Origin: Chthonomonadaceae bacterium
GTDB lineage: Bacteria > Armatimonadota > Chthonomonadetes > Chthonomonadales > Chthonomonadaceae
Reading direction: 5' to 3'
Assembly: GCA_027459665.1 (NCBI GenBank)
Contig: DAIDHN010000018.1
Location: 1-63,884 of the forward strand
DNA length: 63,884 bases
In this document: positions 1-14,748 of the stretch, piece after piece
Position numbering within the stretch: the first letter of the stretch is position 1
Layout: each line of letters begins with the position of its first letter
Translations under genes and position numbers: made by a program
The notes under the pieces: model-generated
The model's database searches: none
What the model was told of the DNA's origin: nothing
What the model saw: only the letters and a program-made list of their open reading frames with translations

Positions 1-552
1 GGAGCGAAGAGGAGGAAATGAGTTTTGAAGAGAAGGGTGGGTGAGCTGCCAAACATGTTCTGGCGAGAGGTCTTTGAGGCCGTGTATGCCCAGGTCGAGC
101 AGCACCGCATGAGAAGGCAGAGACGAAAAGAGAAGTGAGGCGGTTGCGTGAGAAAGAAGAACCTGCCCGCCGTGGGCGATGGCGCGAAGGCGCGCACAGC
201 GGTTGACAGCAGGACCGAAGAAGTCGCCGTCGCGAAGCTGGGAATGACCGCTGTGAAGGGCAATGCGTACACGAAGGGGAGTGGGGGTGGGCCAGGAGGT
301 GTTTTGAAATGCCAACTGCAGAGACAAGGCACACTCAAGAGCAGACTGAGCAGAGGAAAACACGGCAAACAGGCTGTCGCCTTCACCACGAGACTTGAGC
401 AGATCGCCACCAAAAGCAGACAAATGATGAGCAGCCAGGCGGTCATGCTCGACAAGCGCAGAACTCATCGCATCTGAATACAACTCCCATAAACGAGAAC
501 TGCCCTCTATGTCGGTCATAAAATAGGTGTAGGAAAAGGATTCAACATCCAT
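1..552 (-). CDS. Class III nucleotide cyclase-domain protein, 3' part cut by window edge
   Basis: An open frame runs from an ATG at 552 off the left edge, giving about 184 residues. The N-terminus has the cyclase metal-binding motif FMTDIEGSSRLWE. This is followed by a GEGDSLFAVF segment, the LRVRIALHSG strand and the NRCARLRAIAHGGQ helix, which are the expected blocks of an adenylate/guanylate cyclase homology domain. In many bacteria this N-terminal domain precedes a large STAND-type ATPase with TPRs, so the rest of the gene probably lies outside the window. Whether it makes cAMP cannot be judged from the fragment. The strand is supported by the continuous domain; plus-strand frames here have no recognisable content. 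Confidence 0.82.
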   Translation of the reverse strand, partial: MDVESFSYTYFMTDIEGSSRLWELYSDAMSSALVEHDRLAAHHLSAFGGDLLKSRGEGDSLFAVFSSAQSALECALSLQLAFQNTSWPTPTPLRVRIALHSGHSQLRDGDFFGPAVNRCARLRAIAHGGQVLLSHATASLLFSSLPSHAVLLDLGIHGLKDLSPEHVWQLTHPSLQNSFPPLRS

Positions 553-849: not shown

Positions 850-2901
850 TCAATCCAGGGGCTGCGGCAGGATATTCCAGAGATGGAACACTTCCAGGCT
901 GTCAGGCAGTCTGCTGCCTGACAGGACTTCAACCAGAGCTGCAAGCAAAGCATGTTCCGGATGCCGTATTTTATTCTCCAGATAATCTAGAACGGGCGAC
1001 ATGCTCCATTCAGCATCAAAGTCATCTTGCTGAATAACAGTCTTGAGTTTACCAAGCAAAGTTCTATAAGAGCAGGACTGCAGCATGCTGATAGCTATCT
1101 TCAGCCACAAGGTGCGGGCGACAATATATGTTTGCGCCTCATCACGAAGCTCCCATGCAGCATTGGTATGCTCTGCTGCCTCATCCAGATCACCGGTTAT
1201 GATGGCAATGCGAGCGAGGTGACAGTGAGTACTGGGAAGCTCGCAGTCAGCATCAATCATCTCTTGCAAGTAGTGAATAGCTGCTGCATACTCTCCATTA
1301 TTGTAACATGTTAGCGCAATGCTTCTATTATTCATTATGGAATTTGAGCTTGTACCATCCATTCCCTCATCCTTCCACACAATGTTATTTTGGAAGGGAT
1401 TTAATGGAGCTACCTGTCTGGTTCTCAGGTTTGCCAGCATCTCCCAGGTGCATTGATGGTGTTCTGAGTGCGCATTCTGCTTGACAAATGCACCACGAAG
1501 AGCAGCGCGACCAGTCTCAGGAGGTGATGATACAGCCAGATCGATTGCACTGCGATCAGTTAATATATTGTGGTTCAGTATTCCCGCCTCGTTCATCTTG
1601 TAAAAAATCCCTCCAAGCTCCAAAAAACGAGTATCCGCTTCAAGAAGCTGCAGACGAAGTTTCAGAAAACGGGGCAAATCGCTCCACATCATGCCGTTAT
1701 TGTTGAGGTAGCCTATTACCTCTTTCGCCTCGCTTCTTTCAGGGGAGAGATTCTTCACCATCTCTGGTGTAAGCAGTTCAATTGCTGGTGTATTGCGTTT
1801 CATCTCTTGAAACAGTTTGGCGGCGACATTATTCCAGTGTTTCAATGACTCCCATTCAAAGCCTTCTGCATCGCACATTGCAGTGTAGACAGCCCGCTTT
1901 ATGGTCCAGTCAAGTACCCACTCGCGATCTGTACCCTGCAATGCATGCGTGTTCTGCAGCATATCCAGTGTCATCTCCCAGCCTTTCAGCACCTGCTCTG
2001 ACCACTCAGGCAACCCGCCGCAGCTGTGCTGTCTGCAGACAAGAGCGAGATAGTACCGCTGAATGTCTATAGCACTTACCTGGTTTCCCTCTGTGGTTAT
2101 TGCGGTAGCAGTGAGTGTGGGGTCGGCAGAAAACACTCGGAGCGCAGCCATAGGGTTCTTCAGCATGAGTTGCTCGTCGGGTAGTCCGCCTGCATCTATC
2201 ATTGCGATTACAAGCGCTGTTACGCCTGCTTGCAGAAACATACCGACCTCTGATCCAAGTGCATCGGCACAAATCAGATGGAGGCGGTGGTATCCATTTC
2301 CACCCAGCGGCTGATCACGCAGATTCAGGATTGAGCGAGAATCCATTGTACTGTCGCTGGTCACAGTTGTCAGAAAGTGAGAGCGTGGAGAAAGTGTGAA
2401 TGAAATACCAGGGCTAAAAGGGTCAAAGCCGCCTGAGCCAGTGTAGACAATTCTGCTCACCAGAAAGGGGATAATATTCTTATATCGGGTGGGTGGGAAG
2501 CGGCAAAGGTAGTTTTCATGGCATGCCCATGCCTCAGGCTGAGGGCCGTAACCCGTATTGCCTCGAAACACGAGCGCGCGGGAGGGAGTATGGTTTTGCT
2601 CGTACTCTCGCACGAGTTCAGCCATGATTAGATCCCCAGCCAGTACATAGCGCACCAAATCCCAGGGGTTGGTGCACTCTGGCGTGCAGTATTCCGGATG
2701 ATTGCCAACGTCGATGTAGAACCTTCCGCCGTTGGCAAAAAATATGCCTTTGCTATTGTAGCCTTCGAGGCTCTGAAAGCGTTTGTTTGCGATCGCCAGA
2801 AGCGAGAGTGCAGGGGTAGACGAATCTGTGCAGCACCCATTGTTGTCGAGAACCGTAAGCGCATATTCGGTCTCGATCCCTATCAAGGTATTTGTAGTCA
2901 C
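850..2901 (-). CDS. pafA: PafA-like Pup ligase with C-terminal helical-repeat (TPR-like) extension
   Basis: Predicted carboxylate-amine ligase of the PafA/Dop fold that would attach Pup to target lysines using ATP. The frame has 683 residues against roughly 450-500 for known PafA. Visible motifs are GIETEY (8-13), FYIDVGNHPEY (61-71, with Asp64 at the position of the PafA catalytic base), ACHENYL, a YHRLH segment, LDWTIKR, and a late PPETGRAALRGAF block that matches PafA better than Dop. About 60 residues are inserted after LDWTIKR. From about residue 521 a 163-residue alpha-helical tail (ALTCYNNGEYAAAIHYLQEM, then LARIAIITGDLDEAAEHTNA) looks like TPR repeats and could bind substrates or partners. 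The start overlaps the stop of pup by four bases, implying translational coupling. The ligase/hydrolase assignment rests on motif comparison by eye. Confidence 0.85.
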   Translation of the reverse strand: MTTNTLIGIETEYALTVLDNNGCCTDSSTPALSLLAIANKRFQSLEGYNSKGIFFANGGRFYIDVGNHPEYCTPECTNPWDLVRYVLAGDLIMAELVREYEQNHTPSRALVFRGNTGYGPQPEAWACHENYLCRFPPTRYKNIIPFLVSRIVYTGSGGFDPFSPGISFTLSPRSHFLTTVTSDSTMDSRSILNLRDQPLGGNGYHRLHLICADALGSEVGMFLQAGVTALVIAMIDAGGLPDEQLMLKNPMAALRVFSADPTLTATAITTEGNQVSAIDIQRYYLALVCRQHSCGGLPEWSEQVLKGWEMTLDMLQNTHALQGTDREWVLDWTIKRAVYTAMCDAEGFEWESLKHWNNVAAKLFQEMKRNTPAIELLTPEMVKNLSPERSEAKEVIGYLNNNGMMWSDLPRFLKLRLQLLEADTRFLELGGIFYKMNEAGILNHNILTDRSAIDLAVSSPPETGRAALRGAFVKQNAHSEHHQCTWEMLANLRTRQVAPLNPFQNNIVWKDEGMDGTSSNSIMNNRSIALTCYNNGEYAAAIHYLQEMIDADCELPSTHCHLARIAIITGDLDEAAEHTNAAWELRDEAQTYIVARTLWLKIAISMLQSCSYRTLLGKLKTVIQQDDFDAEWSMSPVLDYLENKIRHPEHALLAALVEVLSGSRLPDSLEVFHLWNILPQPLD

Positions 2902-3095
2902 TGCCCACCTCGCTGTTTGGACTGTCTCAGAAATGTGTCAGAGTTTTGGCTGAGTGTACGGTTTATGACTTCTCGAGCTGCTGTGAGCCTCTGAGCAGAC
3001 TGCTGCAGGTTGTCACGCTTTGGCAGGGTTTCTTCGGGGGAGTCTGTTTCGTTGACCTGTGGTTCGGTTCGGGCAGTTTTTTTTTGAAGTTCCAT
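2898..3095 (-). CDS. pup: Pup, prokaryotic ubiquitin-like protein (C-terminal Gly-Gly-Gln)
   Basis: A 65-residue, hydrophilic protein lying between the Dop-like and PafA-like genes. I chose the ATG at 3095 because GGAG lies eight bases upstream; a longer frame up to 3185 lies inside the neighbouring gene. The C-terminal part, INRTLSQNSDTFLRQSKQ followed by RGGQ, matches the Pup pattern of an acidic or polar helix, a Phe-x-Arg segment and a terminal Gly-Gly-Gln. A terminal Gln must be deamidated to Glu by Dop before ligation, which fits the Dop-like gene directly upstream. Pup homologues outside Actinobacteria (some named UBact) are known but uncommon. It overlaps the next gene by four bases. 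Confidence 0.9.
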   Translation of the reverse strand: MELQKKTARTEPQVNETDSPEETLPKRDNLQQSAQRLTAAREVINRTLSQNSDTFLRQSKQRGGQ

Positions 3096-3099
3096 TGTT

Positions 3100-4707
3100 T
3101 TATCTCCGTGGTTCAGAGCGAAATACGTCGCTCGCATAGTAGTAGCTAGTGTCTTCCATAGTATGAGGCGCGTGAGATTTACCATGCACAGTTATCACAT
3201 CCTGGCAGGGTGCAAGTACCTTAAGAATTGCAAGAGGACTGATTTTGTTGCGATTCTTAAAGAGGCCTCCATTTTGTGCGCGTGCCGATCCTGCAGGATC
3301 ATCCAGTTTTGCGGTTCTTATTCGCCTAAAGATGTCTGACGACTGCCGGATGCAAACTTTGTCCCAGTCTACAGCAACGACTTCCGACCCGAATTTTCGA
3401 AGCAGATGGGCGCGTGTGTAGGCCCTTGTGTCGGAAGGAGGCTCATGGACAAACCGCTGAACTTGAGAATCGGATACAGGAAGGTCTACATACCCTGCGC
3501 CCTCCATTGCCCAGTAGAGACCTTCTTGTGGATTCAAACTGCCGTAAAGTAAATCCAGCTGCTTGATCTCAGGAGATTCCCATGTCAGCCCCGGGGTTTC
3601 GTTCATTATCTCAGTCAGCAGACTGCGTTTTAGCACCCAGTCTAGCCGGCGTGAGAGTGTCTCCCAATCTCGGGCAGCAAGACGTTCCAGGGTGTCTCCC
3701 CATAGGTTTATTATTTCTGCAGCACGCGGCACCATCTCTTCGCACCCTCCGGCTGAAACAAAACTGGAGGCAGCATCGAAGAAGCGCCACTGTAATTCAA
3801 GTGCAGTTAAATCTTCGTCTCCCAGGGTTTTGTGTTTGATGGTGAAGTCTAGATCGTGACTGAAAGTACGGAACGCAAGCAAGGGCTGTTTCAGCATGAG
3901 ACTGGGCTTGATTTGGGTGTTTTCACTTTCGACCATTGCCAGCAGTATCTGCATGATGCCAACTTTCAGAATATTTGCTGTGTGAATGAGGTTGCTGTCG
4001 CAAGAGATGTGGTGGAATCTGGCATATTTGGCATCGATGCCACAGAGTGCCTCGTTGCGGCAGTTGATGATGGGGCGGCTGAAGGTAGTTTGCAAACCTA
4101 CAACCTCCTCGAAAAAGTCGGCGCGCTGGCTTAGCTGATAATCAACTCGTTCGGATGCTCTTTCGGCTCCCACCTTGCCCTGGCCTGTGATGAGAGAACT
4201 GCACGCCTGGTAACTTGCCAGCCACAAGAGCATGTCAAGCCGAAAATGAAAAATATTTTCAAAGCAGCTTCGTGAGATAAGGAAGTTGAGATGACTGCCC
4301 CAGGATGAACCGAGGCCGTCACTGTTGCAAGCAAGCGCCTGCAGAGAAACTCCGGGCTGCAGCGTGGCTGAGGCATTGTGCAGAGCCGCCTGTACAATGC
4401 GCAGCTGTGCATGAAATGCGGCAGTAAAGTCCCAGGCGCTTCGTACCTCTGGCAGACAGATTTCCAGGTGCTCCAAGTCGATGTAGCAGCATGATCCGTT
4501 GCTCAGCCATTTTCTACCGAAGTCTTGCGGGTCGTATTTCAGTGTGCCAAATGCACTACCGGGAGTGCCTGCAATATGCCTCAGAAGGAGTTTGCTTGCT
4601 TCTGCGCCTGTTCCCTGCGGTAAGAATTCTCCAAGCAGGAAATTTCCGATTTCTATGTCTGCGCCGACTATTTTGGGCAACAGTTCAGGCCGGTTGTCTT
4701 TTTTCAT
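3100..4707 (-). CDS. dop: Dop-like Pup deamidase/depupylase, divergent active site
   Basis: 535 residues from the ATG at 4707, which has GAGGAA six bases upstream; an earlier in-frame ATG at 4743 has no good site. Dop removes the amide of Pup's terminal Gln and cleaves Pup from substrates. The C-terminal half is close to Dop: LTWESPEIKQLDLLYG, PPSDTRAYTRAHLLRKFG and VDWDKV line up with the Dop blocks. The active site is looser than usual: the GxExEY motif reads GADIEIG (Glu19 kept), the Asp of the YxD motif is present (Asp77), HPEY is HLEI, SHENY is SHLNF, and the usual RDEPH reads RNEALC. It may be a weakened enzyme, a specialised hydrolase or a Pup-binding pseudoenzyme. The pup start lies four bases after its stop. 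Confidence 0.8.
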   Translation of the reverse strand: MKKDNRPELLPKIVGADIEIGNFLLGEFLPQGTGAEASKLLLRHIAGTPGSAFGTLKYDPQDFGRKWLSNGSCCYIDLEHLEICLPEVRSAWDFTAAFHAQLRIVQAALHNASATLQPGVSLQALACNSDGLGSSWGSHLNFLISRSCFENIFHFRLDMLLWLASYQACSSLITGQGKVGAERASERVDYQLSQRADFFEEVVGLQTTFSRPIINCRNEALCGIDAKYARFHHISCDSNLIHTANILKVGIMQILLAMVESENTQIKPSLMLKQPLLAFRTFSHDLDFTIKHKTLGDEDLTALELQWRFFDAASSFVSAGGCEEMVPRAAEIINLWGDTLERLAARDWETLSRRLDWVLKRSLLTEIMNETPGLTWESPEIKQLDLLYGSLNPQEGLYWAMEGAGYVDLPVSDSQVQRFVHEPPSDTRAYTRAHLLRKFGSEVVAVDWDKVCIRQSSDIFRRIRTAKLDDPAGSARAQNGGLFKNRNKISPLAILKVLAPCQDVITVHGKSHAPHTMEDTSYYYASDVFRSEPRR

Positions 4708-4764
4708 AGTTTCCTCACATGTCTGTTTTTCGCAATCCCCCACTTTAGCGTGGAGAGGTGTTTA

Positions 4765-6441
4765 TCAGGCAAGGCTCATATAGCGCAGCGGACGGACGAC
4801 CCGTCGGAGTATGGGATCTACCCCGACCACATGTTCGTCTTCTGGCAGCGATTCAAGATGATCGTGTACATTCTGAGGCGTTAAGGTGGTGATAAGCCGC
4901 TGTATCGCTTCTGCCAGTGCCACTTCCATGTCATCCAGTCGCAGCCCTTTGTCACCAGTGTTAATTTCACGCTGCAGAGCGCGCCGCTTTACAGAGTGGC
5001 AGATTTGCTGAATGAGGCGGCCGCTCACAAGTTCTTTTATGGCCACTGTGCGCGTTTTGCCATCTCTCAGCTTGAGAACACAAATCTCGCTTTCGGCATT
5101 GGGCGCATAGAGTCTGGAAACGGCTCGTTCGATCATCTCCGTTCTGGTGTTGCCAGCAATACCTTGACAAGCTTGATAAGGAATATCCTCTTCGAGATGA
5201 ACCGAGAATATTTCTTTGGCACCTCGAATATCTGGCCTGTGTACAGGTATCTGATCTCCAAATCGCGAAAGCAAAGCTGAGTCGAGCAGGTCTTTGCGAT
5301 TGCAGGCGCCAACCACAGAGACGTTGTGCAGCTGCTGAAAACCGTTCATCTCGTTGAGCAGGGTGCTGAGCGCTTTGTCGTCATGATGACCTGCATAGCT
5401 GCCTCGAGTGCGAGCCACGGCTTCGATTTCGTCTATAAAAAGGACAGCGATATTGCCTTCAGCGGCTGCCTGACGCATGCTGGTGAAGAGGGCAGTGATG
5501 TTCGCCTGCGTCTGACCGACCCACATTGACTCCCATGAGCTTGCATTGACGACAGAAAGAAAAACCTTTTTGCCGCTGCGCCGCTGAATCTCTGCGAATA
5601 CAGCCCGGGTCATGCAGGTTTTGCCGTTTCCGGGCGGCCCGTAAAGCAGAAGGGTGTTGGAGCAGGGAAGGCGGTATTGTTTAGTTCGATCTGGGTAGAG
5701 CAGGCTGTTGAGCAGCGCTTCCTGTATTCGATTTAGATTGCCTTGCTGTCCCCCAATGCTCTCCAGCGGAATATCTTCAACTTGCTCAAGCAGGTACGGG
5801 TTGCGCTCCGAATCGTCCATTTTTTCCTGGCAGAGGCGCGCTGCCCTATCCCACCGCACCAAATCACCGGGACGCAAAGCGATATCTTGCAGCGAGGAAG
5901 CAGCTTCTACCACAACCTTCTCATCGCTGTGCGTCGAGCGCAAAACAATTCTTGCATCTGATGTGTAACGTTCAAAATTTGCTATCTCCCCGCTCTGCGG
6001 GCGAGAATCTGCGGTTTTTACAAGTACGCTTTGATCTGAACTCAGATAGACAGATTCGCCAGTGTGCAATGCGTTCGCGTTCACATATGAGGAAAGCGCC
6101 ACTATCCTGCGTCCATTTCCGCAGGCTACCAGAGCCATCTCGCCTTGCGGGGTCTGCTCCATGTAGAGAAACAATGCAGGAATGAGCGGAGCTTCGGAGT
6201 ACTTATCGAGCAGCGTCTGCGTCTCTTCCATTTGCGCATCAGCCTCTTGCAGCCCGGTGCGATACATGCTGATCTGGCTCAGTAACAGATCATCCAGTTC
6301 GGGGCTGCTTTCAGGCACCCGGCTGCGCGCAGACTGAAGCGACGCCAGTGCATCTGCCTGAGAGGCTTCACCATTCTGCCATGCGCGAAGCACCCTCAGC
6401 GCATCCTGGAGAGAATCCGTATTTTTTTCGGTGCGAGACAT
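4765..6441 (-). CDS. arc: ARC/Mpa-like AAA+ ATPase of the Pup system
   Basis: 558 residues with the layout of ARC/Mpa, the hexameric ring that binds Pup and unfolds pupylated proteins: a helical, probably coiled-coil N-terminus (about 50-82), an OB-type beta region (about 85-200), then one AAA domain with Walker A GPPGNGKT (268-275) and Walker B LFIDEIEAVARTRG. The start ATG has AAGGAG nine bases upstream. The family usually ends in a Gln-Tyr-Leu type motif that docks into the 20S proteasome; here the end is RPLRYMSLA, without that motif. Together with the absence of prcA/prcB nearby, this suggests a proteasome-independent unfoldase or another partner protease. It lies between the deubiquitinase and the Dop-like gene, with gaps of about 50-60 bases. 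Confidence 0.88.
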   Translation of the reverse strand: MSRTEKNTDSLQDALRVLRAWQNGEASQADALASLQSARSRVPESSPELDDLLLSQISMYRTGLQEADAQMEETQTLLDKYSEAPLIPALFLYMEQTPQGEMALVACGNGRRIVALSSYVNANALHTGESVYLSSDQSVLVKTADSRPQSGEIANFERYTSDARIVLRSTHSDEKVVVEAASSLQDIALRPGDLVRWDRAARLCQEKMDDSERNPYLLEQVEDIPLESIGGQQGNLNRIQEALLNSLLYPDRTKQYRLPCSNTLLLYGPPGNGKTCMTRAVFAEIQRRSGKKVFLSVVNASSWESMWVGQTQANITALFTSMRQAAAEGNIAVLFIDEIEAVARTRGSYAGHHDDKALSTLLNEMNGFQQLHNVSVVGACNRKDLLDSALLSRFGDQIPVHRPDIRGAKEIFSVHLEEDIPYQACQGIAGNTRTEMIERAVSRLYAPNAESEICVLKLRDGKTRTVAIKELVSGRLIQQICHSVKRRALQREINTGDKGLRLDDMEVALAEAIQRLITTLTPQNVHDHLESLPEDEHVVGVDPILRRVVRPLRYMSLA

Positions 6442-6489: not shown

Positions 6490-7512
6490 TTAGTCGAGCA
6501 GGTAGAATCCCCGTGGCTCAATTATTCCGCTGCGCCAGCCATAGAGCGCATGTACAATTTCCCATCCCCCATCGGGGAGGGGACGATCTCCGGTGACAAG
6601 AGCGGTATGAAAACCCAGTGAAAAGACTGTACGATGAACAGACTTATCGTCTGAACTGAAGAACTGCTGCCCCAAAGGGCAGTGACGCTGCAGCTCAGGC
6701 CCACATGTGCACCAAAAACGTGAAGGGTGAGTGTGGTGCCAGGCGAGAAAGACTTCTTCACGGTTGCGCAGGAGGATCGCGGCCCTGACTGCATCCCAGG
6801 TTGCGGGGGTAAATGTGAGCCTGGTTGACTGCGCTATGGTATGAAGCGCTGGAACCAGAGCCGTGACCTCTGCGAAAACCTCGGGCGACTCTGTATCTCG
6901 CCAGAGGTAGCCAATCAGGATGCCGCCAGTCTCATTGACGTTTGCTTCTTCTTTGAGCGCTTCGGCCTGCTGCAGCACGGAGAGTGGTATGAAGACCGGG
7001 TAGTCACCCGTTTCCTCGGAACCACCTATGAGCCGGGAAGACCCTAGAAAAGACTTTAAAGGTCTTTCACCGCAGAGCGGTGAGGAGGGCACCTGCTGCA
7101 CATGCCAGCCTTGAGGTTGTCCCGGCCCGTCGGCAGCCTCCTCTGCAGAACAGGCGAAGGCGGCGATTCGATAGTGAAAGGTCTCTCCTACCTTGAGCTT
7201 TCCCTCTTCGATACATCGGGAAGAGACCGACTGTACCTGGCTCTTGAAGTAGGCTAGAGGGATATCGCAGGGGATGTCTCTGCCATCTCCATTGCAGACA
7301 ACAGCCTGCACGCCACTAAGGTGAGGCGCGCCATCAGCGTCCCAGACAGGAACAATCCTCTCAGGCCCTACTAACGATTTACTTTGCCTGAGCGCAAGGA
7401 ATCTGGCTGATTCAGTGGCGGGATGCCAGTCTGGGGTGATTGGATACTCTCCGATAGGGATTCCTGCTTCTGAGGAGAGTACCGCCAGCAAACGGTAGGG
7501 GAGACCGGCCAT
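6490..7512 (-). CDS. JAMM/MPN-domain deubiquitinase-like metalloprotease
   Basis: 340 residues from the ATG at 7512, preceded by AGGAGG; that site sits over the end of the modifier gene, so the two are coupled. The C-terminal half is a JAMM domain: Glu194 in NETGGILIGYL, His260 and His262 in HHTHP, then Ser286 and Asp289 in FFSSDD. These are the zinc-binding and catalytic residues expected of an isopeptidase. The spacing from HTHP to the Ser/Asp pair is longer than normal because of an insertion with several Cys and His (WCTCGPELQRHC), perhaps a second metal site. The first 170 residues are a separate domain I do not recognise. It probably removes the neighbouring ubiquitin-like protein from targets. 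The modifier already ends in Gly-Gly, so maturation is not needed. Confidence 0.85.
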   Translation of the reverse strand: MAGLPYRLLAVLSSEAGIPIGEYPITPDWHPATESARFLALRQSKSLVGPERIVPVWDADGAPHLSGVQAVVCNGDGRDIPCDIPLAYFKSQVQSVSSRCIEEGKLKVGETFHYRIAAFACSAEEAADGPGQPQGWHVQQVPSSPLCGERPLKSFLGSSRLIGGSEETGDYPVFIPLSVLQQAEALKEEANVNETGGILIGYLWRDTESPEVFAEVTALVPALHTIAQSTRLTFTPATWDAVRAAILLRNREEVFLAWHHTHPSRFWCTCGPELQRHCPLGQQFFSSDDKSVHRTVFSLGFHTALVTGDRPLPDGGWEIVHALYGWRSGIIEPRGFYLLD

Positions 7513-7516
7513 GTCT

Positions 7517-7822
7517 TTAACCTCCTGCGCCCCTGCCGGCATCCACGGTTGGCATCAGGCGAAGAGTGTCATCAGCCTGAAGCGAATCGCCAACACGTTC
7601 ATTCCCTCCCAGGTATCTGCCCTCGCGCTCGCTGCGCACTCCGTAGGTCAGGGGACGGCCCTCCGGGTCCTGGGCGGGCTGCTGCATTGTCGCCAGCAGA
7701 TACTTTACAACCTCATCTATGGTCGCCTGCGATGGAATTTTGCTTGCGACAAATGTCTTTTGGCCGGTTACATCGGTAACTGTTATCGGTCCGATTTCAT
7801 GTTCATGCGTCATTTCACTCAT
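7517..7822 (-). CDS. Ubiquitin-like modifier with free C-terminal Gly-Gly
   Basis: A 101-residue protein whose last residues are DAGRGAGG, with nothing after the di-glycine, so the mature C-terminus for E1 activation is encoded directly. The body fits a beta-grasp fold: an ITVTDVTGQKTFVA hairpin, the helix IDEVVKYLLATM, then strands ending in DDTLRLMP, as in ubiquitin-like proteins. Its position between the E2-side genes and the JAMM protease gives the strongest support. AAGGAG precedes the ATG at 7822. The first four bases overlap the stop of the upstream gene. Confidence 0.85.
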   Translation of the reverse strand: MSEMTHEHEIGPITVTDVTGQKTFVASKIPSQATIDEVVKYLLATMQQPAQDPEGRPLTYGVRSEREGRYLGGNERVGDSLQADDTLRLMPTVDAGRGAGG

Positions 7823-8694
7823 TTCAAGTTATCTCCTTGTATGGTTTCTTTCAGCTTGCCAGATGTCATTGCAAGGTAGGTTGAAGCGATATCAACCTGC
7901 TTCAGCGCCAGCAGCTCGTGCTTCATTCTTGCAGCGCTTACGCTCAGTGCGCTAAGCGCCATTGGTAGATCAGTCTCCAGATCAGCAGCCTCCAGGCTCA
8001 CAAGCAGCAGGGCGCGATGGGTGTTCACCTTTACCTCGGAGGCCGAGCGTACCATTCGGAAGAGCTGACACGCCCTTAAAAGCAGATGCGTAATTGCCTG
8101 AGTACAAATGTCAGGCAGCTGCTCGTCCCACTCGCCGAGGAGTACGCTCACGACAAGACCATGGTGGTGCAATGTGATTTCTGCCTGACTGAAACTGGGG
8201 GTGCCTTCCAGTTCAACCAGCAGTGTTCCGGGCGAGCGCTCAAGAACGGGCCAGCCTGTTTCAGAACAGATCGCCTTCAGTGCCGTATAATCTGCTTCAG
8301 GTTTTGACTGCGGTAAAGGATTGAGAGGGGCGGTTTTGCATAGGAAATCGAGTGCCTGCTGCAGAATGACGCCGCCCTCCTGTATTATTTTCTCGACATT
8401 TTGATGTTGTGAATGCACAATAATATCGAGCAGCAGTGCAGGCTTGCCAGACGGGCAAAGGCAGAACTTTGCTCCCCCTGGCACGGTTTGATTGAGTTCC
8501 AGAAGTTTTATCAGGTCATGCTCATATTCGTTCGGCAGAGAGACAGCAAGCCGTACCCAGTCTGTTTCTACCCGGATGGCGGGGTGGGAGAAGGCGGTCT
8601 CTTCAGCCGACAGATTGTTCTGCAGACTTTTCACATGCACGCCAGTTTGAAACGGTCTTCGCTTTGCGAAAATGCGATCTGTAAATGCTAGCAT
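7819..8694 (-). CDS. Unrecognised protein of the Ubl operon, possible tandem domains
   Basis: 291 residues, soluble, without a signal peptide, membrane segment or metal motif. I do not recognise the family. It appears to hold two related alpha/beta halves: residues about 40-130 (including LLLDIIVHSQ and an amphipathic helix) and about 150-275 (including TLLVELEGTPSFSQ, RALLLVSLEAAD and a long helix). The pattern of antiparallel strands plus helices loosely recalls YbjN or type III secretion chaperone folds, but this is inference from the hydrophobic pattern only. Tight packing between E2 (3-base gap) and the modifier (4-base overlap) implies a core role, perhaps as adaptor, E2 partner or substrate binder. 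Confidence 0.7.
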   Translation of the reverse strand: MLAFTDRIFAKRRPFQTGVHVKSLQNNLSAEETAFSHPAIRVETDWVRLAVSLPNEYEHDLIKLLELNQTVPGGAKFCLCPSGKPALLLDIIVHSQHQNVEKIIQEGGVILQQALDFLCKTAPLNPLPQSKPEADYTALKAICSETGWPVLERSPGTLLVELEGTPSFSQAEITLHHHGLVVSVLLGEWDEQLPDICTQAITHLLLRACQLFRMVRSASEVKVNTHRALLLVSLEAADLETDLPMALSALSVSAARMKHELLALKQVDIASTYLAMTSGKLKETIQGDNLK

Positions 8695-8697
8695 AAG

Positions 8698-9204
8698 TCA
8701 ATGTTTCTCCTCTATTTCCATATGAAACCTTCGCCGTTTCAGCGGACGGCTGTCGATGGGAAATCGGGACATGTTCTCACGCGCCCAGTCGGCTGCCTGA
8801 GGGTTGAGAAAGTCGACCAGATTAAGATTCTGATAGGTTAAAATGCTGTGAATCTGATAGAGAATATCGATCAATCCGACCCCAGGACGCAGATGCCCTG
8901 TGCAGAGGGCAGGGCCATATACGTTGGGATGCCAGACGTTGGGCGTCAGCATCCAGACCATTTGCACCGGGTTGATTTGCCTTAGGTGATCTTCACCGAA
9001 ATAGATCCCAGCGACAAAATGGTCCGCTTCGACTATTTCGCCGTTCAGCTGCCGTATCAAGCCTTTGCACATGAATTGAGCAACAAATCTTCGACAGGGC
9101 GATTCCGCATCATCGGGGATGATTATCACCAGATCGGTTTGATCTGCAAAGGCCTGCCAGTCTGATTCCTGTCGACGTAGCCAGGAGGCTAAAATCCGGT
9201 CCAT
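8698..9204 (-). CDS. E2-like ubiquitin-conjugating enzyme
   Basis: 168 residues with a UBC-type core. The segment WHPNVYGPALCTG (91-103) corresponds to the HPN...C active-site region of E2 enzymes, giving Cys101 as the thioester-forming residue. The following LIDILYQIHSILTY and NLVDFLNPQAADWA helices match the E2 C-terminal half. It should receive the modifier from the E1 encoded directly upstream and pass it to lysines, with or without the RING protein. The start is set by GAGGAG nine bases upstream and overlaps the E1 gene by 16 bases. Confidence 0.87.
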   Translation of the reverse strand: MDRILASWLRRQESDWQAFADQTDLVIIIPDDAESPCRRFVAQFMCKGLIRQLNGEIVEADHFVAGIYFGEDHLRQINPVQMVWMLTPNVWHPNVYGPALCTGHLRPGVGLIDILYQIHSILTYQNLNLVDFLNPQAADWARENMSRFPIDSRPLKRRRFHMEIEEKH

Positions 9205-10313
9205 GTCTGTAATCTCCTCGCATGTGGGCGCTGCGCTATGAGGTAGTGCCGTTCACCAAACTGGTCTTCTACGGTAAGCAGATCTCCTGGCCGCAGCCCC
9301 AGGGCAGCCGGCCCTCTTGCCAGCAGGCGCGCCGGAATATCGTGGCAGCGCAGATGCTCTTGCAACATTCCGGGGCGGCAAGTTGATGTGTCGCCGCAGA
9401 ATCGACAGCTCTGAACAGGACTGTCGCGCGTGCCGACGCACTGAATGGGCCGATCTATGCGCCCGCAACGCTGGCAGGGCTCTCGCCGCAGGAAGCGCTG
9501 CCCCGGTGCGGAAAGGGAGACGCTTTCAGAAGACATGCTCATCCTGTCAGCCGGCACCACCGGGAACAGAAGGTCTTTCAAGCGCAGACGGCCTGAGATC
9601 TCCTGCGGAGCGAACACCCGGTGGTCAAAGCGACATTCCGGATTTCGGCGGTTGTGACTGACGTAGTGCCGGTGACCGTTCAGCCCATAGAGCACCTGCT
9701 CTCCCGCACGCTGCTCGTCCCTCTGACCGTGCAGCAACTTGTCCACCTCTGCCGCCTGAAGCGAAGCCGCTAAAGCGCCGAGGTAGGCGGGTGCGTTGGT
9801 CGGGGCTGCAGAAGACGGCCCCTTCTGGCAGGGATGACGCACCTCCATAGTGTCGTAATGTTGCTGCGTAAAGGCGCACTCCAGGCAGGGGGCCGACATG
9901 GCAGGTAGAAATATTTCTATGCGAGTCAGCCTCTCCGAGGCCAGCACACCAGAATCTATCCACGGAACGCCGAGACGCCAGGCAACCTCGTTCACGTGCA
10001 GTCGGCTGAGCCTTGAGTCCAGACAGGCACAGATGACACTGCATGACAAAGCCCCATAAGGCAGCGATTCTACGTCGCATATGTGCGTGGTGATCGGCAA
10101 GTTCGGCCGAATACGCTTTAAAAATCTCCTCATGGCATGCGCCTTCGGCATACCTACCTCGGCGAGTGAGATGTTTTGCGTGCTCAGGTTGTCATGCTCG
10201 TAAACGCCGGGGTCTATTAGCGTGAGGCTTTGAATCTCTTGCATGCGGGCGAGCAGACCGCAGAGTGCTGAACCAATATTCCCACAACCGATGATCGTTA
10301 CGTGTCCGTCCAT
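9189..10313 (-). CDS. ThiF/E1-like activating enzyme with C-terminal zinc-ribbon extension
   Basis: 374 residues. The N-terminal Rossmann motif GCGNIGS (9-15) and TLIDPG define an ATP-using ThiF/MoeB/E1 adenylation domain. CLEC (143-146) is the usual first half of the structural zinc site, and Cys162 precedes an AYLGALAASLQAAEVDKLL helix, the position where MoeB-type enzymes carry a conserved Cys. After about residue 270 there is an extra domain with CQRC and CRFC pairs, likely a zinc ribbon, then a short basic tail. It should adenylate the Gly-Gly end of the modifier and load the E2. Extra zinc ribbons are not part of the minimal family and may bind E2, modifier or nucleic acid. Confidence 0.87.
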   Translation of the reverse strand: MDGHVTIIGCGNIGSALCGLLARMQEIQSLTLIDPGVYEHDNLSTQNISLAEVGMPKAHAMRRFLKRIRPNLPITTHICDVESLPYGALSCSVICACLDSRLSRLHVNEVAWRLGVPWIDSGVLASERLTRIEIFLPAMSAPCLECAFTQQHYDTMEVRHPCQKGPSSAAPTNAPAYLGALAASLQAAEVDKLLHGQRDEQRAGEQVLYGLNGHRHYVSHNRRNPECRFDHRVFAPQEISGRLRLKDLLFPVVPADRMSMSSESVSLSAPGQRFLRREPCQRCGRIDRPIQCVGTRDSPVQSCRFCGDTSTCRPGMLQEHLRCHDIPARLLARGPAALGLRPGDLLTVEDQFGERHYLIAQRPHARRLQTWTGF

Positions 10314-12306: not shown

Positions 12307-14748
12307 ATGCCAAGCAATAAAGCTGTAAAAAAACGCTACCGTGCCATGATTTTGACAGACGCGGCGCTTGCAATGCTGAGCAAAAGACTGAGTACTTCGT
12401 CAAGCAGAACATTAGCAGATGCTATGGGCCTGGATTATAAAACTGCCAAAAAAGTACTTGATCAGGGCGGTAATGACATCGCTATATTTAAAATAGTTTT
12501 CGAAAAAGTTGGTTTGGTTTGGAATGATACGTATGCTGTAGGGAAGCCGCTTTCAGCGGCAAACAATCTCCCTGCCGCCACAGATACTATCGGTCGAGGT
12601 GACGATGTTGAGACTATTAAGAAAATGCTGGAGCAAAGGAAATTTGTTTCTCTCACAGGACCAGGAGGGATTGGGAAGACACATCTTGCCCTGTCTGTTG
12701 CCAGAGAACTTGTTAATAACCAGCAGCAATATCCCAATGGCATATGGTTAGTGAATTTGCAGCTGCTTAACCCAGGTAATACAGAATTGCTTTACCAGAC
12801 TATCGCAAGGGTTCTAAACGCGCCTCCTGAAGTTGATAGCGAGTCGAATCTTATCAAATGGTTGTCTAACAAACAATTGATTCTTATTCTTGATAATTGT
12901 GAACATTTGCGCGCAAAGTGTGCCTCTTTTTTAGATTCTTTGTTAGCAAACTGTTTTAACGTAAAAATTTTGACTACAAGTGTCAGTAGCTTGAATGTGA
13001 ATGGGGAGCAAAATTATTTGGTTCCGGCTCTAGAGCTGCCCAGCTCACCAGAGGGTTTGGATGAGAGTGATGCAGGCAGCGGCTACAAAGAGTGTGTGGT
13101 CGATAGTATGTCGGGTACTCTGTTTATCCATGAGGCGAAGTTAAAAAAACACGATTATGAGTTATATGACAACCAGGCTAAGGAGGTATTTGACCTACTA
13201 CATTTTTGTGAGGGTAATCCTCTCTGGATCAAGCTGGCTGCAGCCCAGATAAATCATGGAACTGCAGAATTGTTGAACAATATGAAGCACATGTTGTCGG
13301 GCAGCCCTGGATCATCCACTCTTCAGATGAGCTTAGACAACATGATGGACTGGGTCTTAGATATTTTGAATAAGGAACCTAAGGCTGCTTTACTATTGTC
13401 TCGCCTTTCTATATTTGAGGGAGGGTGGACCATTGACGCCGCTAAATCGGTATGCAGCGATCAAACTGATATAAATGAGAATGAGATTGGGATTATCATT
13501 ACTACACTCATAGATTGGAACCTGATAGTTGCCCCAGACTCTGAATCTCGGTATGTAATGCTTGAACCGATCAGAATATATGCACAGGGCAAACTCGCTC
13601 AGTCTGATAAAGAACAGTTGCAAGTAAGCATGCTCCAGTACTATACCTCCTGGACAATGCAGGAGGTAAGCGGCTTGATGACCTCAGCCCAATCACGAAT
13701 TCTGAGTAGAATTGGTTCAGAAATTCATAACCTATCAGTGTGCCTGCGGCATTCTAAACCTGAGAATAGGGACAATGTGTTACGGCTGGCGGTCTCACTC
13801 ACCCCATTTTGGGACATTCGCGGCTATTGGCTCGAAGCTTATAGTATTATTAGCAGCCTCATTATTGATGTTGAAAAAAATAGCTGTGACTCTATTCTGC
13901 ACGCGGTTGTATATGTATCTGCAGGGATATTCGCCATGCGATTGAGGAAGTTCACTGAATCAAACGAGAATTTTATAAAGAGTAAGAATCTGCTCTTGAA
14001 ATTGCTTTCCAAATCACCAGACGAATTGCTCTCTATATCACCAGGCAATCTGTATTCTATACCACCAGGTGATAGCTTGTGTCTTGGCTATCTTGTAAAG
14101 GTATATAATAATCTGGCCAGTGTTGCTCAAGAAAGTGGTGATTTTAATACAGAGATAGATTATTATCTCCTTTCAATACAGATAAAGCAAATACTTGGAG
14201 ACTCTAATGGCGTTGCGGTCAGCCGTATAAACATAGGGTACTCATACTATCTTCAAAGCCTTCTGGATAAAGCTGCAGAAACACTGGAACTGGGAATATC
14301 CGAGCTTAATAAGAATGGAGACTCCGCTCCACTTGCAAACGCACACAACAACCTGGGTGGTGTCTACAGACTTAAAAATGACAAGCAGAAGGCACTTATT
14401 CATCTCAAACTCAGTCTGGGTATGCGTCAAAGGCTGAAGGATAAACGTGGACTAGTCTATTCGATCTACGAATTTGCTCAACTCCTCAACTGTTGCGAAA
14501 AGTTCGAGGAATCTACACAGCTGATAGCACAAGTCGAATGGCAGATAATAAAGCTTGGCAGTTCATTCCCTTCTGCAGAGCAGGTGCGCATGAAAAAGTT
14601 ACTCACATTTCTAGAGGAGAAATTAGGCAATGAGAGATACATTTTGAATTGTAAGAAAGGGAAAAAAATGTCTCTGACTCAAGCAGCGAATTTTTGCGCT
14701 GATATAGATACAGAAGTCGCTTCGAGCGATAGAGATCAACCTATCTAA
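12307..14748 (+). CDS. STAND-type (NB-ARC-like) ATPase regulator with TPR C-terminus
   Basis: 813 residues. The N-terminus (about 10-80) is helical with an apparent helix-turn-helix (TLADAMGLDYKTAKKVL), followed by a nucleotide-binding domain with Walker A GPGGIGKTH and Walker B LILILDNCEH. These are hallmarks of the AfsR/MalT-like predicted ATPases. The C-terminal third has TPRs (AVSRINIGYSYYLQSLLDKA; NAHNNLGGVYRLKNDKQKA). Such proteins act as ligand-controlled switches, often transcriptional. AGGA lies about eight bases before the ATG. The gene looks clearly more AT-rich than the neighbouring Ubl operon, which may mean a separate origin. The cyclase fragment at the left edge probably belongs to the same broad protein class. 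Confidence 0.8.
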   Translation: MPSNKAVKKRYRAMILTDAALAMLSKRLSTSSSRTLADAMGLDYKTAKKVLDQGGNDIAIFKIVFEKVGLVWNDTYAVGKPLSAANNLPAATDTIGRGDDVETIKKMLEQRKFVSLTGPGGIGKTHLALSVARELVNNQQQYPNGIWLVNLQLLNPGNTELLYQTIARVLNAPPEVDSESNLIKWLSNKQLILILDNCEHLRAKCASFLDSLLANCFNVKILTTSVSSLNVNGEQNYLVPALELPSSPEGLDESDAGSGYKECVVDSMSGTLFIHEAKLKKHDYELYDNQAKEVFDLLHFCEGNPLWIKLAAAQINHGTAELLNNMKHMLSGSPGSSTLQMSLDNMMDWVLDILNKEPKAALLLSRLSIFEGGWTIDAAKSVCSDQTDINENEIGIIITTLIDWNLIVAPDSESRYVMLEPIRIYAQGKLAQSDKEQLQVSMLQYYTSWTMQEVSGLMTSAQSRILSRIGSEIHNLSVCLRHSKPENRDNVLRLAVSLTPFWDIRGYWLEAYSIISSLIIDVEKNSCDSILHAVVYVSAGIFAMRLRKFTESNENFIKSKNLLLKLLSKSPDELLSISPGNLYSIPPGDSLCLGYLVKVYNNLASVAQESGDFNTEIDYYLLSIQIKQILGDSNGVAVSRINIGYSYYLQSLLDKAAETLELGISELNKNGDSAPLANAHNNLGGVYRLKNDKQKALIHLKLSLGMRQRLKDKRGLVYSIYEFAQLLNCCEKFEESTQLIAQVEWQIIKLGSSFPSAEQVRMKKLLTFLEEKLGNERYILNCKKGKKMSLTQAANFCADIDTEVASSDRDQPI

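Follow-up and report, generated by a model that had tools for sequence, protein, structure and literature searches.

Ubiquitin-like conjugation and pupylation are usually seen as separate tagging solutions. Burroughs, Iyer and Aravind reportedly treated prokaryotic RING/E2 operons in 2011, and their paper possibly mentions what our searches of the open literature found described nowhere else: an operon that unites ubiquitin-like (Ubl) and Pup genes, or the protein in it that is examined here (X). Class I secretion chaperones and their flagellar counterparts deliver cargo to a hexameric ATPase, a route comparable to the one proposed below for X; the title of one study (PMC2546511) refers to export subunits that dock at the membrane ATPase. 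AmyR/YbjN proteins are reported to work by protein–protein contacts with no enzymatic action, and to have conservation confined to the core and the dimer interface (PMC5398634). The fold that we assign to X is already known, and so is its two-copy arrangement, described in ADP-ribose systems as predicted peptide-binding chaperones with two type-III-secretion-chaperone/YbjN ("TY-chaperone") domains (PMC9503650). Pup without linked 20S genes was noted in a planctomycete in 2008 (PMC2588565).

The window, by which we mean the whole stretch of 63,884 nucleotides analysed, carries a ten-gene operon on the minus strand that runs from 10852 to 850 in the order RING, E1, E2, X, Ubl, JAB, ARC-type AAA ATPase, Dop-like, Pup and PafA-like, with X as the fourth gene (Table 1). 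X begins with ATG, three bases after the E2 stop codon and about 13 nt downstream of a GAGGAG within the 3′ end of the E2 gene, and the end of the X gene shares 4 bases with the start of Ubl. The coordinates and spacing in the initial annotation, which had put X between E2 and the modifier, were thus correct; the operon, however, is far larger than the "Ubl operon" named there and continues into the ARC/Mpa-type ATPase and the Pup-related genes. Near the operon we noted by eye an adenylate-cyclase-like gene fragment (window 1–552, minus strand) and a large STAND/TPR-type regulator (12307–14748, plus strand).

Table 1. Genes of the operon in the window and predicted domains of X, with the basis of each assignment
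Feature	Position	Strand	Basis and remarks
RING-like E3 candidate, 176 aa	10322..10852	-	weak Prok-RING_1/zf-RING_2 matches; conserved Cys/His ligands
E1 (ThiF fold)	9189..10313	-	conserved C-terminal Cys pairs
E2	8698..9204	-	HPN motif, invariant Cys101
X (tandem TY-chaperone protein, 291 aa)	7819..8694	-	ORF, homologues, predicted structures
X N-terminal TY-chaperone domain, residues 34-122	8329..8595	-	model; complete form in homologue L011
X C-terminal TY-chaperone domain, residues 132-267	7894..8301	-	model, structure matches
Ubiquitin-like modifier (Ubl)	7517..7822	-	conserved core to ...DAG, then tail RGAGG
JAB/JAMM peptidase	6490..7542	-	conserved E, HxH, S..D
ARC/Mpa-type AAA ATPase	4765..6441	-	proteasomal-ATPase OB domains; TIGR03689 1.4e-81, under equivalog cut-off
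Pup-ligase-family protein, Dop-like	3100..4743	-	TIGR03688 1e-82, under cut-off
Pup/UBact-like protein, C-terminus KQRGGQ	2898..3095	-	listed ORF opens at 3185; ATG 3095 fits spacing
Second Pup-ligase-family protein, PafA-like	850..2901	-	added C-terminal region

The E2, JAB and RING-like proteins retain the residues expected of them (Table 1). Nearly all homologues have AG at the end of the conserved Ubl core; several stop exactly there, and others carry variable tails of 1–12 residues; this pattern of short and variable, or lacking, tails suggests that they are trimmed by the operon JAB to mature the modifier. On the Pup side, the matches of the ATPase and of both Pup-ligase proteins are strong but fall under the NCBI equivalog cut-offs, so that by sequence these are relatives rather than certified family members. 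A long C-terminal extension of the PafA-like protein weakly resembles TPR/PPR repeats. Elsewhere in the same genome is a complete Pup-proteasome locus that includes 20S subunits (L127, 11603–18184: ARC, Dop, Pup ending in RSGE, two 20S subunits and PafA), and the window operon is therefore an additional system beside the canonical one. Mpa ends in GQYL; the operon ATPases do not, and because the ARC of the canonical locus differs from GQYL likewise, the missing motif is uninformative on docking of the operon ATPase to 20S.

That X is a real gene follows from homologues at about 20–30% identity, which are found at this position in several phyla; all X proteins are very diverged, with about 17–27% identity to the window copy. 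With leave-one-out profiles, 17 of 18 X members scored E 9e-29 or better; only L026, from Zipacnadia, fell short at E 0.065, though it was the top match of its own locus. Another candidate homologue, L008, proved to be a false match inside an IspG-like gene. Across 22 members, 12 alignment columns reach a conservation of at least 90%; they hold mostly core residues and no Cys, His or Asp. Comparison of the homologues thus offers no conserved catalytic residue, X is probably not an enzyme, and this pattern of conservation is that reported for YbjN proteins. Identity as an E3 (RING/HECT), a JAB or a ThiF protein was rejected on the same columns and for want of a profile match. X is acidic (median pI 5.1) and the fastest-diverging protein in the comparison: over 120 operon pairs its mean identity is 25%, against 36–48% for RING, E1, E2, Ubl, JAB, AAA and Dop, and it falls below E1, E2, Ubl, JAB, AAA and Dop in every one of the 120 pairs and below RING in 119.

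Structure prediction very probably identifies X as a tandem TY-chaperone protein. The AlphaFold2 model, built from an 18-member alignment, has a pLDDT of 82 and a pTM of 0.81. For its C-terminal half, the best Foldseek matches were AmyR of the YbjN family (E 5.2e-4) and then Escherichia coli YbjN, and VIA-align returned the YbjN-like regulator 8q8o (Z 9.6), VecA (9.1) and YbjN (8.5); the first 34 rows were all secretion chaperones, YbjN-family proteins or uncharacterised proteins of the same fold, with unrelated rows from 5.8 down. The N-terminal domain of the window protein is partly eroded: its model shows no confident first helix or first strands, which are present in homologues. Modelled alone, the N-domain of the homologue L011 reaches a pLDDT of 91 and matches SycT with Z 11.8 (unrelated rows from 7.2 down), and its order of elements, helix, strands, helix, two strands, helix, is identical to that of the C-domain of X and matches solved members. 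The fold is hence present in both halves, and the two domains in one chain are seen from the X model together with the L011 N-domain. A sequence comparison of the two halves detected no similarity (probability 0.5%), so the repeat rests on structure.

The VIA-align ranking for X also bears on the idea of a pseudo-E2 (UEV/RWD-like) that would partner the E2, a reading to which the element order of TY-chaperones, loosely like that of RWD/E2 folds, lends some appeal. The best UEV-type row, BRCA1-A complex chain C, has a Z of only 4.7 versus 9.6 for the TY-chaperones, and with a confident model of the TY-chaperone fold the pseudo-E2 is strongly disfavoured and very improbable.

Library searches told little of this. 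The window protein has no Pfam or PADLOC match and one meaningless NCBIfam match, in keeping with the earlier statement that it resembles no E1, E2, E3 or protease type; Pfam YbjN (PF10722) touches 4 of the 18 homologues weakly (best E 9e-4), so the profile search that had been recommended gives a hint from relatives but no name for the window protein. A search of the PDB by sequence gave nothing useful, and a comparison with viral structures gave none at E ≤ 0.001. The recommended structure prediction, on the other hand, supplied a fold, so that "unknown" no longer applies, and it bore out "tandem-domain", if only at the level of predicted structure.

X was first seen in two relatives and then across the phylum. 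A JAB-anchored contig scan placed loci in Armatimonadota, Planctomycetota, Acidobacteriota, Verrucomicrobiota and Latescibacterota, with gene order constant throughout; L026, where X is recognised by its weak match, is counted within Armatimonadota, the phylum of the window itself. Scanning IMG/VR with the JAB profile found none. In E2-profile searches of four phyla, the E2s that adjoin X form a tight subfamily (150 bits or more, clipped contigs excepted), with many weaker E2s standing apart; longer stretches were then read around the loci. All 24 operons in which both an ARC-type ATPase and the E2–Ubl slot are visible have X in that slot (L026 by the weak match only), and neither X nor an ARC-type ATPase occurs in any of 30 related E2 loci, some of them on short contigs; these counts do not represent independent events.

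The sole AAA match beside an X-less E2 is IteA-like, an anti-phage type of ATPase (L148, 9329–11321). In a second E2 family of Armatimonadota, trypsin/DegP-like proteins with a membrane segment, recognised by eye, come after the E2 (L036–L045), and zinc-ribbon/RING-like membrane proteins follow it in L049–L060.

Related Ubl/E1/E2/JAB operons without X exist, and bacterial Ubl transfer therefore does not generally depend on X: the earlier expectation that it is "probably a required component" stands in so far as X is a constant part of its own operon family. The X-less relatives also bear on the idea of X as a structural scaffold between E2 and RING, a bacterial E3 co-factor that binds no peptide. 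The fixed order within one operon and the lack of a conserved enzyme-type residue would suit such a part, but many related operons combine an E2 with one or more RING-like proteins and have no X, which makes the scaffold quite unlikely.

Some loci with X depart from the full gene set. L019 is an X operon without the ATPase/Pup half: no ATPase lies within 10 kb, other contigs of the genome carry Pup-ligase genes, and the ATPase must be elsewhere in the genome or missing from the assembly. The distant sister loci L112–L114 retain E1-E2-X; L112 and L114, of which more is readable, continue with Ubl, JAB and ATPase. There (L112, 5276–9839; L114, 3808–8311) Pup/Dop/PafA give way to a second Ubl-like ORF, a possible E2-like protein, a PRTRC_A-like JAB and a ThiF protein. 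Because this clade retains X and ATPase with a PRTRC-like cassette in place of Pup/Dop/PafA, X tracks the ARC-type ATPase and not Pup, in counts that are not independent and include some short contigs.

These loci also weigh on a second alternative, in which X is the dedicated escort of a single product of the operon, be it E2, immature Ubl or disordered Pup, and keeps it soluble or unused until needed, with no role in handling clients. Class I secretion chaperones are often encoded beside a single cargo, the X gene directly adjoins both E2 and Ubl and overlaps the latter by 4 bases, and the divergence of X, in background-corrected pairwise identities, leans weakly to E1/E2 (partial r 0.34–0.36, versus 0.03 for the ATPase, shared ancestry uncorrected), which is a mild, weak pointer to a role on the conjugation side. 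Yet since related Ubl/E2 pairs manage without X, and X occurs in the sister clade without Pup in the operon, neither E2/Ubl as such nor Pup explains X, and we regard the escort as unlikely, if still a serious candidate. A third alternative, a stress regulator of the YbjN/AmyR type that tunes expression of the operon, takes its cue from the annotated regulators among the nearest solved structures (8q8o, 6vu7 and AmyR). It is improbable given the fixed place of X within an enzyme cluster, its strict pairing with the ATPase across phyla and a model with no separate DNA-binding domain.

The predicted fold, its tandem arrangement, the absence of catalytic residues, the fast divergence and the strict co-presence with the ATPase are each well supported, and together they lead us to favour, with a probability of about one half, X as a non-enzymatic peptide-binding adaptor chaperone that handles clients for Ubl conjugation and the unfoldase. 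With two TY domains in one chain, X could act as a built-in pseudo-dimer that would hold extended or misfolded stretches of clients. By contacting the E2, it would bring these clients to E2 and RING, which would modify them with the operon Ubl, and it may then pass the modified clients to the ARC-type ATPase for unfolding. Against this adaptor role, some YbjN-family proteins are regulators with no shown chaperone role, the weak lean of X divergence is to E1/E2 and not to the ATPase, and L019 has X in a locus that lacks the ATPase. Only tentatively would we extend it to a client receptor of a two-tag quality-control machine, in which X would deliver the same clients to Ubl and Pup conjugation alike and to a shared ARC-type unfoldase, and in which a fixed RING-E1-E2-X-Ubl-JAB-ATPase core would accept a swappable second tagging cassette, Pup/Dop/PafA or PRTRC-like. 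In at least five bacterial phyla both tagging pathways share one operon and one unfoldase, with X as the sole non-enzymatic, fast-evolving part that always accompanies this unfoldase. If X is a client adaptor, it offers a direct handle on substrate choice by bacterial Ubl systems and on a possible convergence of the two tags on one machine.

Among known systems, the ubiquitin-like defence systems Bil/Bub and CBASS share the Ubl, E1, E2 and JAB logic of the operon but are not known to include a Pup half or an ARC ATPase. PADLOC gave only generic E1, JAB and AAA matches on the operon. Bacterial RING-E1-E2-Ubl-JAB operons have these five components in common with it, whereas the 30 X-less relatives of this type have neither X nor the ARC-type ATPase. 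The Pup-proteasome (UBact) loci of the same bacteria share the ARC-type ATPase, Dop, Pup and PafA, but the canonical locus L127 has 20S subunits and no E1, E2, RING, Ubl, JAB or X. As to X itself, YbjN/AmyR (PF10722) is similar in fold (to the C-domain, and to the N-domain of the homologue), in low conservation and in the lack of enzymatic residues; unlike X, it is single-domain, occurs outside Ubl/Pup operons and matches only the four of 18 homologues by sequence, weakly. Class I type III secretion chaperones (SycT, SicP, SycE, ExsC and VecA) are acidic and have the fold of each domain, but are separate single-domain proteins that serve secretion, whereas X is a tandem protein in an operon without a secretion gene. 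TY-Chap2 (2022, PMC9503650), described in ADP-ribose systems and compared here by description, no Pfam match linking the sequences, resembles X in having two TY-chaperone domains per protein and in being a predicted peptide-binding chaperone.
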